Part shown: positions 25,653-31,537 of the stretch, in pieces | Position numbering within the stretch: position 1 is the first letter of the stretch | Layout of the letters: each line of letters begins with the position of its first letter | NCBI RefSeq assembly: GCF_038967635.1 | Contig: NZ_CP152413.1 | Coordinates: 2,976,001 to 3,040,000 of the forward strand | Direction of reading: 5' to 3' | Source of the DNA: Bradyrhizobium sp. B124 | Lineage (GTDB): Bacteria > Pseudomonadota > Alphaproteobacteria > Rhizobiales > Xanthobacteraceae | DNA length: 64,000 nt | The notes under the pieces: generated by a model | What the model was told of the DNA's origin: nothing | The model's input: only the letters and a program-made list of their open reading frames with translations | Database searches by the model: none | Program-made: the position numbers and the translations under genes

Positions 25653-26639
25653 TTAACTCCTGGCGCGGCGGCGGCCGAGCTCGATCTGGTCACGCAGGAA
25701 GTCGGCAAAGGCGATGCCCTGTGCTTTCAAGGCCTTAGGGTAAAGTGATGCCGCGGTGAGGCCGGGCAGCGTGTTGGTCTCGAGGTAGACCGGGCCATTG
25801 GCCGACACGATGAAATCGCTGCGCGAATAGCCGGTGCAGGACAATGCGCGGTGCGCCCGCAGCGCATGGTCCATGATCGCGGCGCTGACCTCGGGCGCGA
25901 AACGGCCGGGGCAGATCTCCTGGGTCGACTTCAGAAGGTATTTGGCTGTGTAGTCGAAGCCCCCCTCCGCCGGCACGATCTCGATCGGCGGCAGCGCGAA
26001 CACCGTGCCGTCGGATTGCTCGAGCACGCCGCAGGTCGCCTCGACGCCCGACACGAACGGCTCGATCAGATAGTCTTCGTGCTTGGCGGCATTGCGGACC
26101 GCGACAAGGTCCTGCTGTGCGTTGACGAAGATCAGCCCGTAGCTCGATCCGTCCTTGGCGGGCTTTGCGATCAGCCTGCCGTGCTGGGCGAACGCCTCAT
26201 CGAGCTGTGCGACCGATATGCCCTGTGGCGCGTTGAGGCCTGCGATCGCGGCGAAGCGCTTCGCCGATGGCTTATCGAACGCCAAATGCGACGACGCCGA
26301 GCCGGAGCCGGTGAACGCGACGCCGCGCATCTCGCACATTGCCTGCAATTCGCCGTTCTCGGCGCGGCCACCGTGCAGGCCGAGCACCAGCACGCGCTGC
26401 TCGGCACTGGCTTTGTCGAGTGCCCGGTCGAGCGCGATGCCGCGACCATCGGGCTTGAAGTCGACCTCGAAGGGCCGCGTGTGGCCGAGCAGCTGTTCGG
26501 ACGTCACCGCGTGCACGGTGTCGTCGACGTCCCAGAACCAGAGCTCCGCGTCGGGCAGCGCGCGGTGCAGCGCCTGCGCGCTCGCCACCGAGACCAGCCG
26601 CTCCTTGTTGGTGCCGCCGAACAGAATGGTCACCTGCAT
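25653..26639 (-). CDS. ddl: D-alanine--D-alanine ligase
   Basis: The 328-residue ATP-grasp enzyme shows the Ddl order of motifs: the N-terminal GGTNKERLVSVASAQAL (the usual GGxSxERxVS with changes), LHGGRAENGELQ, the ATP-binding KPAKDGSSYG, then KYLLKSTQEICPGRF and the metal region YLETNTLPGLT. Ddl joins two D-alanines for the pentapeptide stem. Its start shares one base with the murB stop (TGATG), indicating coupling. It is somewhat longer and more divergent than standard DdlB. The motif changes are listed as a finding. Confidence 0.88.
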   Translation of the reverse strand: MQVTILFGGTNKERLVSVASAQALHRALPDAELWFWDVDDTVHAVTSEQLLGHTRPFEVDFKPDGRGIALDRALDKASAEQRVLVLGLHGGRAENGELQAMCEMRGVAFTGSGSASSHLAFDKPSAKRFAAIAGLNAPQGISVAQLDEAFAQHGRLIAKPAKDGSSYGLIFVNAQQDLVAVRNAAKHEDYLIEPFVSGVEATCGVLEQSDGTVFALPPIEIVPAEGGFDYTAKYLLKSTQEICPGRFAPEVSAAIMDHALRAHRALSCTGYSRSDFIVSANGPVYLETNTLPGLTAASLYPKALKAQGIAFADFLRDQIELGRRRARS

Positions 26640-27556
26640 CAGCTTTTCCCGATCCGCTTGATTTCCCAGTGCAGCTCAATTCCGCTGGTCTGCTTGACCC
26701 GCTCGCGCACCGTCTCGCCGAGGGTCTCGATGTCATGCCCGGTGGCGTTGCCGGTGTTGATCAGGAAATTGCAGTGCATCTCCGACACCTGTGCGCCGCC
26801 GACCTTGAGGCCGCGGCAACCGGCGGCGTCGATCAGCTTCCAGGCGCTGTTGCCGGGCGGATTCTTGAAGGTCGAGCCGCCGGTCTTCTCGCGGATCGGC
26901 TGCGCGGTCTCGCGATGGGCCTGCACCTCGTTCATGCGGGTGCGGATCGCCTCAGTATCGGTGATCCTGCCGCGGAAGCGCGCCGAGGTGAACACGATGG
27001 ACGGATCGACGCCAGAGTTGCGATAGACGAACTTCATGTCGGCATTGCCGAACGTATGCTTCGTACCGTCGCGGCCAACGCCGGTGGCCTCGATCAGCAC
27101 ATTCTTGGTCTCGCCGCCATTGGCGCCGGCATTCATGCGCAGCGCGCCGCCGACCGTGCCGGGAATACCGAAGAAGAATTCCATGCCGCCGATGTTTGCA
27201 GCAGCCGCCGTCTCGGCGACGCGCTTGTCGAGCGCCGCGGCGCCGGCGGTGACGACATCGCCGGCTGCACTGGTTTCGCCAAAGGTGCGCGGCGCCAGTC
27301 GGATCACGACACCGGGCATGCCGCCGTCGCGCACGATCAGATTGGAGCCGACGCCGACGACATAGACCGGCAACTCCTGCGGCAGCCGCTTCAGGAAATA
27401 AGCCAGATCATCCTCATCCGCTGGCGTGAACAGCACCTGCGCCGGACCGCCGACACGAAACCAGGTCAGCTCCGCCAGCGACTGGTTAGCCAGCAGCCGC
27501 CCGCGCAGCTCCGGCATCGCGGTTTTCAGGTCGGGCGTGATGTCGGGGAAGGTCAT
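26639..27556 (-). CDS. murB: UDP-N-acetylenolpyruvoylglucosamine reductase
   Basis: The 305-residue flavoprotein has the FAD-binding region [16 protein letters not shown], the AGANGG segment typical of type II MurB, and the C-terminal [10 protein letters not shown] and [18 protein letters not shown]. MurB uses NADPH to make UDP-MurNAc. An AGAGGT ribosome-binding site lies between the ATG and the nearby repeat of the GIY-YIG element, so this start is well supported. The upstream gap to murC is 412 bases and holds that element, while the downstream junction with ddl is an overlap of one base. Confidence 0.95.
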
Positions 27557-27573
27557 GCGTGACCTCTCCGTCC

Positions 27574-27608
27574 GTCATGGCCGGGCTTGTCCCGGCCATC
27601 CACGTCTT
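27574..27608. repeat. Left inverted repeat of the GIY-YIG element
   Basis: A 35-base repeat starting GTCATGGCCGGGCTTGTCCC and ending CACGTCTT. It is the exact reverse complement of 27912-27946, and its first 25 bases can fold into a hairpin. The GIY-YIG frame is open through it, giving a spurious [15 protein letters not shown] N-terminal extension. Confidence 0.9.
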
Positions 27609-27621
27609 GCAGTATCTCCAC

Positions 27622-27912
27622 ATGGCAGGGGGATACGTCTATTTTCTGACCAACCGACCGAACGGCGTGCTCTATGTCGGCGTAACGAGCGATCTCGTCC
27701 GCCGGATATTCGAGCATCGTTCTGGATTCGTCGATGGATTCACCAAGCGCTACGGCTTGAAGCGGCTGGTTTACTTCGAGCAATTCGACGACATCCGCAC
27801 CGCTATCCAACGTGAACACACCATCAAGCATTGGCCACGCGCTTGGAAGGTTCGCACAATCATCGCAGCGAATCCGAACTGGGACGACCTGTACGACACG
27901 ATAGTGCGGTGA
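27622..27912 (+). CDS. Single-domain GIY-YIG endonuclease
   Basis: The 96-residue protein is a minimal GIY-YIG nuclease of the COG2827/UPF0213 type. It has the GIY-YIG pair as GGYVYFLTN...VLYVGVTSDL, the conserved Arg in LVRRIFEHR, and a catalytic-type Glu near REHTIKHW. The open frame runs upstream to 27559, but those codons are repeat sequence, so the ATG at 27622 is preferred. There is no obvious ribosome-binding site. The stop codon TGA ends on the first base of the right repeat. It lies antisense between murC and murB and probably acts on DNA carrying the flanking repeats; that is inference. Confidence 0.85.
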   Translation: MAGGYVYFLTNRPNGVLYVGVTSDLVRRIFEHRSGFVDGFTKRYGLKRLVYFEQFDDIRTAIQREHTIKHWPRAWKVRTIIAANPNWDDLYDTIVR

Positions 27913-27946
27913 AGACGTGGATGGCCGGGACAAGCCCGGCCATGAC
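27912..27946. repeat. Right inverted repeat of the GIY-YIG element
   Basis: This 35-base stretch is identical to the reverse complement of 27574-27608. It begins at the last base of the nuclease stop codon, so gene and repeat are physically fused. On the minus strand it lies 22 bases past the murC stop and could fold in the murC transcript. Confidence 0.9.
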
Positions 27947-27968
27947 GTGGTGAGATACGAGGCCTCCA

Positions 27969-29372
27969 TCACCCCAGCGCCTTCAATTCGTCGGGCAGTG
28001 CGTAGGCCCATTGCGTGATGTTGCCGGCGCCGAGGCAGACGACCAGGTCGCCGGACTTGGCAATACCGTGAACAATCTTCGCGAGGTCGCCGGCGTTCGG
28101 CAGCGGGACAACGTTGCGATGGCCGTGGGCGCGCAGGCCGGCGGCGAAATGGTCGCGGTCGATGCCTGCGATCGGTGCTTCGCCGGCCGGATAGACCTCC
28201 GCGACCACGACCGCATCGGCATCGTTGAAGCAGGTGCAGAATTCCTCGAACAAGGATTGCAGGCGGGTGTAGCGATGCGGCTGCACCACGGCGACGATCT
28301 TGCCGTTGGTGGATTCCCGCGCCGCCTTCAGCACGGCCGCGATCTCGACCGGATGATGACCGTAGTCGTCGATCACGGTGATGCCGTTCGTCTCGCCGGT
28401 CTTGGTGAAACGCCGCTTGACGCCACCGAAGCCCGCCATGGCCTGGCGGATCACGTCATCGGACACGCCGAGCTGATGCGCGACCGCGATCGCCGCCGTC
28501 GCGTTCGACGCGTTGTGGGGCCCCGGCATCGGCAGCATGATGTCAGCGATCTCGTGCGTCGCGCCTGACTTGCGATCGCGGATCGCGACCTTGAATTTCG
28601 AGCCGCCGCCCATCGGCGTCAGATCCAGGAGCTGCGCATCGGCCTGCGGATTCTGGCCGTAGGTGACGATGCGGCGGTCCTCGATCTTGCCGACGAGGGC
28701 TTGCACCACCGGATGATCGGTGCACATCACGGCAAAGCCATAGAACGGAACGTTCTCGACGAAATTGCGGAACGCGTCCTGGATCGCCTCGAAGGTCTTG
28801 AAGTGATCGAGATGCTCGGGATCGATATTGGTGACGATGACGACATCGGACGGCAGCTTCAGGAACGTGCCGTCGCTCTCGTCGGCCTCGACCACCATCC
28901 AGTCGCCTGCCCCGAGCCGCGCATTGGAGCCATAGGCATTGATGATGCCGCCATTGATCACGGTCGGATCGAGCCCGCCGGCGTCGAGCAAGGTCGCCAC
29001 CATCGTGGTCGTGGTGGTCTTGCCATGGGTGCCGGCGATCGCGACGCAGCTCTTCAGCCGCATCAATTCCGCCAGCATCTCGGCGCGCCGCACCACGGGA
29101 ATGCGCCGCGCGCGCGCCGCCATCAGCTCGGGATTGTCGCGCTTGATCGCAGTCGAGACCACGACGACATCGGCGCCATCGACATTCTCGGCGGTGTGGC
29201 CGACCGATATCTTGGCGCCCTTCTTGCGCAGCCGGTCGAGGTTGTAATTGTCCGACGCGTCGGAGCCCTGCACGGTATAGCCGAGATTGATCAGCACCTC
29301 GGCGATGCCGCTCATGCCGATGCCGCCGATCCCGACGAAGTGAATGGGTCCGATCTCGCGCGGCAGTCTCAT
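27969..29372 (-). CDS. murC: UDP-N-acetylmuramate--L-alanine ligase
   Basis: The 467-residue Mur ligase begins [20 protein letters not shown], the glycine-rich start diagnostic of MurC. The ATP P-loop is [10 protein letters not shown] near residue 107, and the C-terminal ligase domain includes [10 protein letters not shown] and [11 protein letters not shown]. MurC adds L-Ala to UDP-MurNAc in the cytosol. The open frame extends to 29471, but the 33 extra residues do not resemble MurC and overlap a degenerate repeat, so the inner ATG was chosen. A class I methyltransferase gene lies upstream in the same direction instead of murG directly. Confidence 0.95.
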
Positions 29373-29559
29373 GATCCGGTTCCTGATATCATCGTCCGTG
29401 CGCGCCTCACAATGGTCGCACTGAGTACTGGATGCCCCGCTTTTCCCATGCGTGACAAGGGCTTTTTCCACCCCGCAGCCGCGGAAATGTCGCTGTTGTC
29501 AGCTACCGGCCGGTGCTGGTGATCTGACGTCACAGACATCTCCATCTCGGCCCCGGCGG
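29373..29559 (-). other. Gap between methyltransferase gene and murC, degenerate repeat
   Basis: No gene was seen here. A GTACTGGATGCCCCGCTTTT stretch near 29423-29442 looks like a decayed half of the TACTGGGTCCCCCGCTTTCG repeat seen at 13106 and 14666. Confidence 0.35.
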
Positions 29560-30399
29560 CTACGCCGCTCCCGGCCGCACGGCGCGCGCGGCGAACTCAT
29601 CCTGCATCTCGATGACGCGAAGATAATTGCGCAGGCGGTTGGTCTCGAGCGCGCGCAGCAGCTTGTTCTGGTGATAGGGCAGCACGAGCTCGGCGAGCTG
29701 TGCACTCCAGGCAGCGTTCATGTCGAACAGCACGCCGAGGCCGAACACGGCGGGGATCTCGGCGAAGCCGAACTCCCTGCCCTGCGCCAGCTCTTCAGCC
29801 AGGAAGTCATCGATCGCGGTCATCACGCCATTGCGCGCACCGCCGGCGGCGTTCGCGAATGCGGCGAAGCCGGCGCCGCGAAATCCACGCCCCTCGACCA
29901 GCAGCGGGCGATCCAGCGTGGCACCGGCGTTGAAACTGTGCGGGTGACGAAACTCGGCGGGAATCTGGCTTGGCGCGTAATACATGTCGCGGCGCCCGCA
30001 GGGCCAGCCGACATCGTGGAGGAAGACCAGTACGGGCTTGCCGGCACGGCGGCTGATCGCCTCGATCTGCCGGAGCTCGTGATACACGGTGTACCAATTG
30101 TGGTCGCCGTCGACGATCCAGGCGTCGGCGGCATCAAGTTCGCCGAACGCATCGAGGCTGGTCTTCGCGACGTGACGCACATCCGGATTGGCGCTCACCC
30201 AATCGAGGAATTCGCGCTTCGGCGCCGGATCGACGCTGGTGAACTGGCCGCCGCGGGCCCGGCAGTGATTGGCGAGCAGCGCCGACATGCCGCCATACTC
30301 CGCACCGATCTCGACGATGTCTTGCGCATCCGAAAGGCGCAGCGCTTCGAGGATCAGGTCCGAGAATTCCGAGACGGAGTGGATCAAAAGACCCGTCAT
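29560..30399 (-). CDS. Class I SAM-dependent methyltransferase-like protein
   Basis: The 279-residue protein has a Rossmann-type nucleotide loop IVEIGAEYGGMSALLA (about residues 28-43), then an acidic ligand strand FTSVDPAP and a DAWIVDGDHNWYTVYHEL stretch. That order resembles Methyltransf_24/CmcI-like enzymes that act on small molecules or sugars. It sits between murG (37-base gap) and murC, co-directional, although methyltransferases are not part of the canonical dcw set. The C-terminal half has a FLAEE.AQGREFGFAEIPA region of unknown purpose. No membrane segment is present. A role in modifying a cell-envelope precursor is possible but unproven. Confidence 0.7.
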   Translation of the reverse strand: MTGLLIHSVSEFSDLILEALRLSDAQDIVEIGAEYGGMSALLANHCRARGGQFTSVDPAPKREFLDWVSANPDVRHVAKTSLDAFGELDAADAWIVDGDHNWYTVYHELRQIEAISRRAGKPVLVFLHDVGWPCGRRDMYYAPSQIPAEFRHPHSFNAGATLDRPLLVEGRGFRGAGFAAFANAAGGARNGVMTAIDDFLAEELAQGREFGFAEIPAVFGLGVLFDMNAAWSAQLAELVLPYHQNKLLRALETNRLRNYLRVIEMQDEFAARAVRPGAA

Positions 30400-30436: not shown

Positions 30437-31537
30437 TCAAATCCCGGCCACTTTCGCGACCAGATCGGCCAGCCGCTCGGCGGCATCGAGCCGGCCGACA
30501 CTGCGCGCAGCGTCCGCCATCACAGTCAGTCGCTCGGGCTCGGCGGCGAAGGCCGAGATCTCGGCGGCGAGCCGTTCCGGCGTGAAGTCGCCCTGCGTGA
30601 TGCGCAGCGCGCCGTTCGCCTGCGACAGCACGCCGGCATTGGCGAACTGGTCTTGATCGATCGCGCCCGGCAGCGGCACCAGGATCGAGGGCCGGCCGAT
30701 CGCGGCGAGCTCGGCGACGGTACCGGCACCGGAACGCGAGATCACGAGCTGGCTCGAGGCCAGCCGTGCCGGCAGGTCAGCGAAGAACGGCGCGAGCTCG
30801 GCATCGATCTTGAGCCGGTCATAGACCGCGCGCACCCGCGCCATGTCCTCTTCGCGCACCTGCTGGGTGATGATCAGCCGGCTCCACAGCGCGGGCGCGA
30901 GCTTCTCGATCGCCGGCGGCACGATGTCGCTCATCACCCGCGCGCCCTGGCTGCCGCCGACGACCAGCAGGCGCAGCGGCCCGTTCACCTCGGGCGGGGT
31001 GTATTTCACCGCGGCGGCGGCGAGGATCGCCGGCCGCATCGGCGTGCCGACGGTGGTGGCCTTGCCGGCGAGCGCGGGATCGCGGTCGAGCACGCCGGGC
31101 AGCGAGGTCGCGATCGCATTGACGCGGCCGGAGAGGAAACGGTTGGCGCGGCCGAGCACCGCGTTGGCATCATGGATGATGCCGGGAACGCCGAGCATCC
31201 GCGCCGCGATCAGCGGTGGCAAGGTCGGGTAACCGCCGAAGCCGACGACGGCCGACGGCTTCAGCCGGCGCACCACATTGGCGGCGACCAGCGTGCCGTA
31301 GCCGAGCATCAGCACCGTCCGCGCCAGCGAGATCGGATTGCGGCTGCGCACGGTCGCGCTCGGCACGAGCTCGATGCTCTCCCTGCCGAACAGGCCGGAG
31401 TAGCGCAGCGCGCGGCCGTCGGTCGCCAGCCGTACCCGCAGGCCGCGCCTGATCAGTTCCACGGCGAGTGCTTCGGCCGGGAACAGATGGCCGCCGGTGC
31501 CACCGGCCGCCAGCAGAATCAGGGGGGACTCAGCCAT
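30437..31537 (-). CDS. murG: Undecaprenyldiphospho-muramoylpentapeptide GlcNAc transferase
   Basis: The 366-residue glycosyltransferase has the N-terminal motif AAGGTGGHLFPA (the GGTGGH loop that faces lipid I) and a C-terminal UDP-GlcNAc site with VISRSGAGTVAELAAIGRPS and PGAIDQDQFANA. MurG works on the inner face of the cytoplasmic membrane to make lipid II. It follows ftsW after a 104-base gap that contains a palindromic repeat, and precedes the inserted methyltransferase gene. The ATG has a GGGGGGACT stretch downstream, not upstream, so the start depends on homology to the GGTGGH start. Confidence 0.95.
   Translation of the reverse strand: MAESPLILLAAGGTGGHLFPAEALAVELIRRGLRVRLATDGRALRYSGLFGRESIELVPSATVRSRNPISLARTVLMLGYGTLVAANVVRRLKPSAVVGFGGYPTLPPLIAARMLGVPGIIHDANAVLGRANRFLSGRVNAIATSLPGVLDRDPALAGKATTVGTPMRPAILAAAAVKYTPPEVNGPLRLLVVGGSQGARVMSDIVPPAIEKLAPALWSRLIITQQVREEDMARVRAVYDRLKIDAELAPFFADLPARLASSQLVISRSGAGTVAELAAIGRPSILVPLPGAIDQDQFANAGVLSQANGALRITQGDFTPERLAAEISAFAAEPERLTVMADAARSVGRLDAAERLADLVAKVAGI

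Follow-up and report, generated by a model that had tools for sequence, protein, structure and literature searches.

A GIY-YIG nuclease gene bracketed by inverted CGTC-type REPs in Bradyrhizobium: a probable minimal mobile element of a widespread kind

A gene for a small GIY-YIG nuclease, enclosed by perfect inverted palindromes between two genes of the cell-wall cluster of Bradyrhizobium sp. B124, raises the question of whether the enzyme and the palindromes belong together and, if so, what the one does for the other. The locus lies in a stretch of 64,000 nucleotides of contig NZ_CP152413.1, hereafter referred to as the window, in which all positions are given. An initial annotation had proposed that the enzyme mobilises, copies or maintains the palindromes, or that the nuclease was captured by a repeat pair.

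Most of the REPs studied in a 2013 survey are sorted there into GTAG- and CGTC-tagged superfamilies (PMC3733652). According to the excerpted text of that survey, CGTC-type REPs carry a CGTC or TGTC tag, a stem of 8-9 bp mostly starting with AT, a loop of 4-5 nt and a CCA tail; they occur mainly as head-head dimers, i.e. with the tags outside, in species of all alphaproteobacterial orders, and include dRS3 of Neisseria and RPE-4 and RPE-6 of Rickettsia. The same text describes the repeats as not associated with transposase genes, apart from a few fortuitous links to other transposase classes, and the string 'giy' does not occur in it.

The unit between murC and murB

The nuclease gene forms part of a unit of 375 bp (Table 1), delimited by two inverted arms of 36 nt each, which are 100% complementary and 303 nt apart. 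It is situated on the + strand, antisense to two ORFs on the - strand, which are presumably murB and murC, the names being taken over from the initial annotation. That annotation had the antisense layout and the perfect, hairpin-bearing repeats right, but gave 35 bp for each repeat, 373 bp for the unit and 17 bases for its distance from the murB ATG, where the gap from the murB start to the left arm is 16 nt. The gap contains GGAGAGG (complement of 27563-27569), the likely murB ribosome-binding site already placed outside the repeat, and base 27912 is both the final base of the nuclease TGA and the first base of the right arm, so that stop codon and repeat touch as had been noticed. The reading frame extends upstream to a GTG at 27559, so that the nuclease may start earlier.

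Table 1. Positions of the unit, its parts and its neighbours in the window
Feature	Position	Strand	Remarks and evidence
murB	26639..27556	-	ORF
Likely murB ribosome-binding site	27563-27569		just outside the unit
Left CGTC-type REP	27573..27608	+	tag faces outward; sequence, inverted-repeat alignment, folding
Left REP, tag	27573-27576		
Left REP, stem	27577-27585 / 27591-27599		
Left REP, loop	27586-27590		
Left REP, tail CCA	27600-27602		
GIY-YIG single-domain nuclease gene	27622..27912	+	96 aa; ORF, translation, Pfam
Right CGTC-type REP	27912..27947	-	inverted copy of left REP; tag outward
Right REP, tag	27944-27947		GACG on + strand
murC, provisional start codon	27969..29471	-	ORF

Each arm reads as a CGTC tag, a 9-bp stem ATGGCCGGG/CCCGGCCAT of the length first annotated, a 5-nt loop and a CCA tail, in agreement with the CGTC format in tag, stem, loop and tail as given in the excerpted survey (PMC3733652). 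Folded as single-stranded DNA, the arms reach -12.6 and -13.9 kcal/mol (z -5.45 and -5.64). An Rfam search of 26500-29600 returned no match, and an RNA identity of the unit was rejected on that ground. A 279-aa ORF (29560-30399, - strand) is also present between murC and the next large ORF of the cell-wall cluster (30437-31537).

The 96-residue protein has GIY-YIG as its sole Pfam domain (48.2 bits, cut-off 22.6), as initially described, with the conserved Tyr, Arg, His and Glu of the superfamily, residues of known functional role. Conservation of Y7, Y18, G20, R28, H32, E65 and N84 reaches 98-100% in the 144 homologous loci with matched inverted arms and likewise in the 65 loci failing that test (see below), and motif conservation therefore does not separate the two groups. 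The gene is under strong purifying selection, with a median dN/dS of 0.06 in the 21 usable of 29 comparisons (six were dropped for saturated dS, and L041 and L372 for being out of frame register), and an in-frame stop was seen in 7 of 209 loci. The predicted structure (pLDDT 95.1) has UPF0213 BH0048 (1zg2, E 1e-3) and Slx1 (7cq3, E 0.023) as its nearest solved folds, UPF0213 1zg2 being also nearest by sequence (E 4.9e-6), and UPF0213 and Slx1-like GIY-YIG proteins are thus its neighbours by sequence and fold. Slx1 is called structure-selective in abstracts, which by analogy suggests that the hairpin itself may be the substrate. The Slx1 cluster is marked 'no C-terminal Asn' in a table of PMC1564403, whereas N84 is conserved here, with a catalytic role for this Asn only putative; the main text of that paper, as excerpted, contains no occurrence of COG2827, UPF0213 or 'palindrom'.

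Matches to intron and homing endonuclease models were weak, the NCBIfam intron-endonuclease model scoring 20.8 bits against a cut-off of 56.05. The protein shares its catalytic domain, and possibly a selfish spread via DNA cutting, with the GIY-YIG homing endonucleases, but differs from them in having no intron or intein, its own inverted terminal hairpins and one Pfam domain. Intron homing was rejected given the intergenic position, the absence of an Rfam match in 26500-29600, the single domain and the subthreshold score; a defence system was rejected for want of a PADLOC match, and a phage origin because just one weak phage record was found.

GIY-YIG genes and CGTC repeats in this and other genomes

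In the 9.17-Mb genome, a 24-nt core of the arms is present 14 times exactly and 48 times when up to 3 mismatches are allowed (0 for the reversed pattern as a control). The repeats are not confined to this locus; confinement would have told against the initial annotation. They are dispersed and multicopy and, like the CGTC superfamily of the excerpted survey, form head-head dimers: 24 of the 48 sites make up 12 close pairs, all tag-out and none tag-in. Ten of these pairs are 48-60 nt apart start to start and REPIN-like, while each of the remaining two (345 and 338 nt) encloses a GIY-YIG gene. The genome contains eight PF01541 genes, six of which (L032-L037) are bracketed by inverted CGTC-type arms with tags outward. 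These arms mostly differ in sequence from gene to gene, yet left matches right; those of L034 and L036 are of related types, and L035 and L037 are flanked left and right by REP dimers. The two unbracketed genes are L031, beside a stretch which we take to be a tRNA from its appearance, and L038, a 733-codon frame that is presumably UvrC. In several Bradyrhizobium genomes another GIY-YIG gene lies about 11 kb from murB (L060, L065, L101, L109, L115, L119), and a palindrome resembling Br-REP1 (CCGGAATCTCGAGATTCCGG, a name from the excerpted text of PMC5082802) is present in some of these units.

Homologues at E 1e-8 were identified in 38 of 40 Bradyrhizobium, 58 of 190 alphaproteobacterial and 106 of 398 phylum-wide genomes, these sets overlapping. 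For a best-first subset of 209 matching loci, many of them orthologous, bracketing was defined as an ungapped match scoring at least 16 between the left flank and the reverse complement of the right (250 nt each). Matched inverted arms were present in 144 of the 209 loci, compared with 1 of 407 control positions offset by 850 nt to either side. By group, bracketed loci numbered 76 of 91 in Bradyrhizobium (offset control 0/179), 54 of 89 in other Alphaproteobacteria (1/172) and 14 of 29 in other Pseudomonadota (0/56); direct flank matches also reached 16 in 46, 35 and 13 loci of these groups, because the arms are palindromes. A first pass over 143 loci, after 3 of 146 without a central match were dropped, had given 99 bracketed, against 6 of 143 when flanks of different loci were compared, 1 of 281 at offset positions and 0 of 218 window tiles. 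Of 30 cold-shock gene loci from the same genus none was bracketed, although three lay at contig ends and had their flanks misplaced. Chance bracketing is rejected by these controls.

Among the 65 loci that failed the strict test, 46 show one or more outward tags within 250 nt whose stem measures 6 bp or longer (control 36/407). Applied to both sides, this cruder tag-and-stem test was positive in 91 of the 144 bracketed loci, 16 of the 65 failing loci and 3 of 407 controls, and in 17 of the 144 the inward orientation was present on both sides too. In a set of named GTDB loci, which includes Magnetospirillum, Rhodopseudomonas and Nitrobacter and partly overlaps the 209 (L354 is the G231 site and L358 is L238), 54 of 80 were bracketed (control 1/154). 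The association of GIY-YIG genes with CGTC REPs is thus well supported, and matching repeats beside homologous genes, which the initial annotation had named as a check, recur in the own genome, in the homologous loci and in the named loci. The excerpted survey reports no association with transposases (PMC3733652), whereas here the repeats bracket GIY-YIG genes.

The arms also follow the protein. In the 32 genomes with at least two bracketed genes, flanks of different genes matched in 34 of 184 pairings, 16 of them in the three genomes G403, G294 and G619, while the 88 own-gene pairings match by selection. Similarity of REPs was correlated with that of proteins in Mantel tests (999 permutations, non-syntenic pairs, shared stretches of at least 700 nt excluded, some diverged orthologues possibly remaining) for the 76 Bradyrhizobium loci (r 0.70), for all 144 bracketed loci (r 0.53) and for pairs between taxon groups (r 0.28), each with p 0.001. 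In Rhodopseudomonas faecalis (L365) and a Nitrobacter (L370), whose murB-murC units are about 79% identical as a whole, the identity reaches 36 of 36 positions in one arm and in both arms, respectively. The number of REPs, however, showed no dependence on the cognate gene in the 40 Bradyrhizobium genomes (median 25 in the 8 with a member of the clade at 64% identity or more, 16 in the 32 without; one-sided p 0.14), and such a dependence was rejected; G008, with no homologue at E 1e-8, has 50 REPs.

Copies, deletion derivatives and insertion sites

Multiple like copies were not found in the window's own genome, whose five P0001-type genes are 45-58% identical to the query. A related Rhizobiales genome (G403), in contrast, carries at least five full-length units (counted by length, the coding integrity of L434 and L435 being only presumed), together with a truncated one and three that have internal deletions. 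L287, L288 and L289, which occupy separate positions in this genome, can be aligned with L286 of G294 over the stretch from CTTCGTC to GACGAAG, and the DNA outside them is unrelated for most pairs, L287 and L288 sharing more. Homology in G403 starts and stops near the tags, i.e. several copies in this relative have homology ending at their termini. The internally deleted forms retain pieces of the gene, and at least these must therefore have arisen from units and not the reverse.

For L042/L043 and L043/L045, homology ends at the arm ends or within 7 nt of them. The ends are looser in a set of 92 non-syntenic pairs: both lie within 8 nt of the arms in only 8, as measured on the first member, and homology runs more than 20 nt past the arm in 15 (left) and 11 (right), many of the loci having several REPs. 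Two lone palindromes (L449, L338) with a TTCGTC tag at both ends resemble the joined outer halves of inverted REPs and are possibly scars of excision or deletion.

The murB N-terminus was detected in 60 of 60 Bradyrhizobium genomes, and the best 30 of the 60 murB loci were read; in 29 the murC C-terminus lies beside murB, no murC being found in L237. Full-length units occupy six of the 30, one (L216) with a stop codon in the gene. Two hold decayed units (L230, which has lost most of the gene, and L219, which keeps one REP), three hold half-REP traces (L215, L226, L231), and eight have no REP but other intergenic DNA, in most cases with another palindromic repeat. In the remaining ten just 5-8 nt separate the genes, which implies that empty sites exist; a junction occupied in all relatives, which would have told against the initial annotation, was thus not observed. 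The empty sites also differ from the occupied ones in nearby intergenic DNA, and neither a target-site duplication nor a clean joint was found at murB-murC, at the L289 site or in the joined flanks of six units. In related Bradyrhizobium, several of these junctions (L210-L212, L214, L217, L221, L229) contain another kind of long palindromic repeat (CCCTCTCCCCAACCCTCCCCCGCAAGGGGGGAGGG type), as though repeats of this sort were attracted to the site.

Orthologous sites without the L440 unit were found inside another palindromic repeat, and insertion in the spacer of that repeat accounts, at least for L440, for the palindromic look that the flanks of some units have; at the L442 site a relative carries a single palindrome tagged at each end, and at the L043 site flank matches are mostly one-sided. 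Symmetry beyond the tag was weak in 95 units. A long palindromic repeat of AATCTCCCCCCTTGTGGGGGAGAT type was seen at L440, L445 and L446 (G294, G403 and G635, respectively), with many matches in this Rhizobiales genus, and that of G294 holds a GIY-YIG unit in its spacer.

The murB-murC unit is common to Bradyrhizobium, Rhodopseudomonas and Nitrobacter and may therefore be long settled here, the insertion being old. Among the 41 named loci L354-L394, murB and murC are within 1.5 kb in 18 and not in 23. Eight loci away from murB-murC (L367, L369, L371, L374-L377, L379) encode proteins 75-82% identical to the query, and the clade thus sits at more than one place.

Probable nature and distribution of the elements

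Matched bracketing with outward tags, a separate REP type for each gene lineage, co-variation of REP and protein, several copies in one genome whose homology is largely limited to the unit, deletion derivatives, occupied and empty sites and strong purifying selection, all directly observed, count in favour of a mobile element, whereas the REP numbers, the 65 bracketing failures, the loose ends, the lack of a target joint and the old murB-murC unit count against it. With a probability of about 0.62, judged from comparison of sequences, the REP-nuclease-REP unit is a minimal mobile element of a widespread kind, whose nuclease recognises and cuts its own REP. Its substrate would most likely be the CGTC-tagged REP in the form of an extruded hairpin or cruciform, and host repair would help to copy the cut DNA to new sites. 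Strand joining is not known from GIY-YIG enzymes, and the spread would therefore have to borrow host repair. REP dimers (REPINs) would be non-autonomous units that have lost internal sequence but are still open to the action of the enzyme, single REPs would be products of further decay, and each enzyme lineage would have its own REP sequence. We infer that the enzyme binds and cuts its REP and thereby drives copying: that it acts on its REP is likely, and that it drives the spread of REPs is the best explanation, though unproven. The initial annotation is supported as a whole, the comparative evidence favouring its proposal of mobilisation, with capture by a repeat pair as a live rival.

A first rival explanation is homing into REPINs, in which the nuclease gene is a parasite of REP dimers moved by something else: once the enzyme has cut a REPIN that lacks the gene, repair would copy the gene in between the REPs, and the matched arms would be the target. 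GIY-YIG enzymes include classic homing nucleases, as stated in excerpts of PMC1564403, and the weak matches to intron and homing endonuclease models, the ten same-type tag-out pairs 48-60 nt apart besides the two gene-bearing ones, and the persistence of REPs in genomes without a cognate gene all agree with homing. It is nevertheless unlikely, given that ten tight murB-murC junctions of 30 lack a REPIN, that the G403 unit recurs with mostly unrelated flanks, that the G403 deletion derivatives with their gene pieces come from units, and that the 2013 survey, as excerpted, names no enzyme partner for CGTC repeats (PMC3733652). Somewhat less probable still is a domesticated hairpin processor, i.e. 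a host nuclease that resolves or controls REP cruciforms, with the arms as control or terminator sites and the REPs spreading otherwise. Strong purifying selection, the position shared by the three genera and a fold near Slx1, called structure-selective in abstracts, would fit such a role; several copies and deletion derivatives in one genome, the patchy presence in 58 of 190 alphaproteobacterial genomes at E 1e-8, and the full, decayed and absent states at one junction do not. That small intergenic genes in REP-rich genomes are bracketed by coincidence is very improbable: REPs are frequent in these genomes, and especially so in some, such as those of Neisseria, but the controls (offset 1/407, window tiles 0/218, different-locus flanks 6/143, cold-shock 0/30) and arms that match per gene and follow the protein argue against it.

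A mobile REP-nuclease-REP unit would work like RAYT/REPIN systems without being a member of them, and the comparison with RAYT made in the initial annotation is apt in architecture. RAYT (TnpA-REP), the subject of PMC3116915, PMC2817692 and PMC8266576, likewise has one nuclease gene, inverted tag-out REPs and a matched enzyme and REP, and REP dimers are the miniature relatives in both. RAYT, however, is an HUH tyrosine nuclease with a GTAG tag, whereas a GIY-YIG protein of about 96 aa and a CGTC tag are found here; membership was rejected since the sole Pfam match is GIY-YIG, without an HUH Y1 domain, and the tag is CGTC in place of GTAG.

The chances are about even that these units represent a new class of transposable elements, in which the CGTC REP superfamily, with the dRS3-type repeats of Neisseria among it, is moved and maintained in several phyla by single-domain GIY-YIG nucleases, each matched to its own CGTC hairpin, as a second independent invention of the REP/RAYT arrangement. 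In the open-licence PMC literature, preprints lying outside it, no paper linking GIY-YIG genes to REPs and no name for REP-nuclease-REP elements of this kind were found. The matched bracketing points to an unrecognised enzyme partner for a widespread repeat family, and a matched nuclease for many REP types is a direct candidate where the 2013 survey, as excerpted, found no transposase gene (PMC3733652). Should each enzyme prove to cut only its own hairpin, unrelated nucleases would twice have given rise to REP-bound enzymes, and a role would emerge for the many small proteins (7080 at E 1e-10) that go by the source names 'putative endonuclease' or 'GIY-YIG nuclease family protein'. Such private pairs of enzyme and hairpin might in addition be of use as a natural set of specific nucleases.

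Some of the named loci are assigned by bin name only, with contamination of bins possible, to Ignavibacteria (L404), Rubricoccaceae (L420) and Candidatus Tariuqbacter (L400). A plasmid collection has 33 records with a match, and five of the six examined are bracketed: Neisseria gonorrhoeae, with a dRS3-type repeat, Sinorhizobium meliloti, Azospirillum lipoferum 4B, Novosphingobium aromaticivorans and Rhizobium sp. CIAT894. NZ_CP119142.1 and NZ_CP119140.1, both from N. gonorrhoeae and entered as plasmids, look like chromosomes by their size of 2.17 Mb. The homologue of Planktothrix agardhii fails the bracketing test but has similar repeats, of CTGTCATTCTGAG, on both sides; it lies on plasmid p1 (L459), with an MmeI-type restriction enzyme on one side and drmA of a DISARM system on the other.
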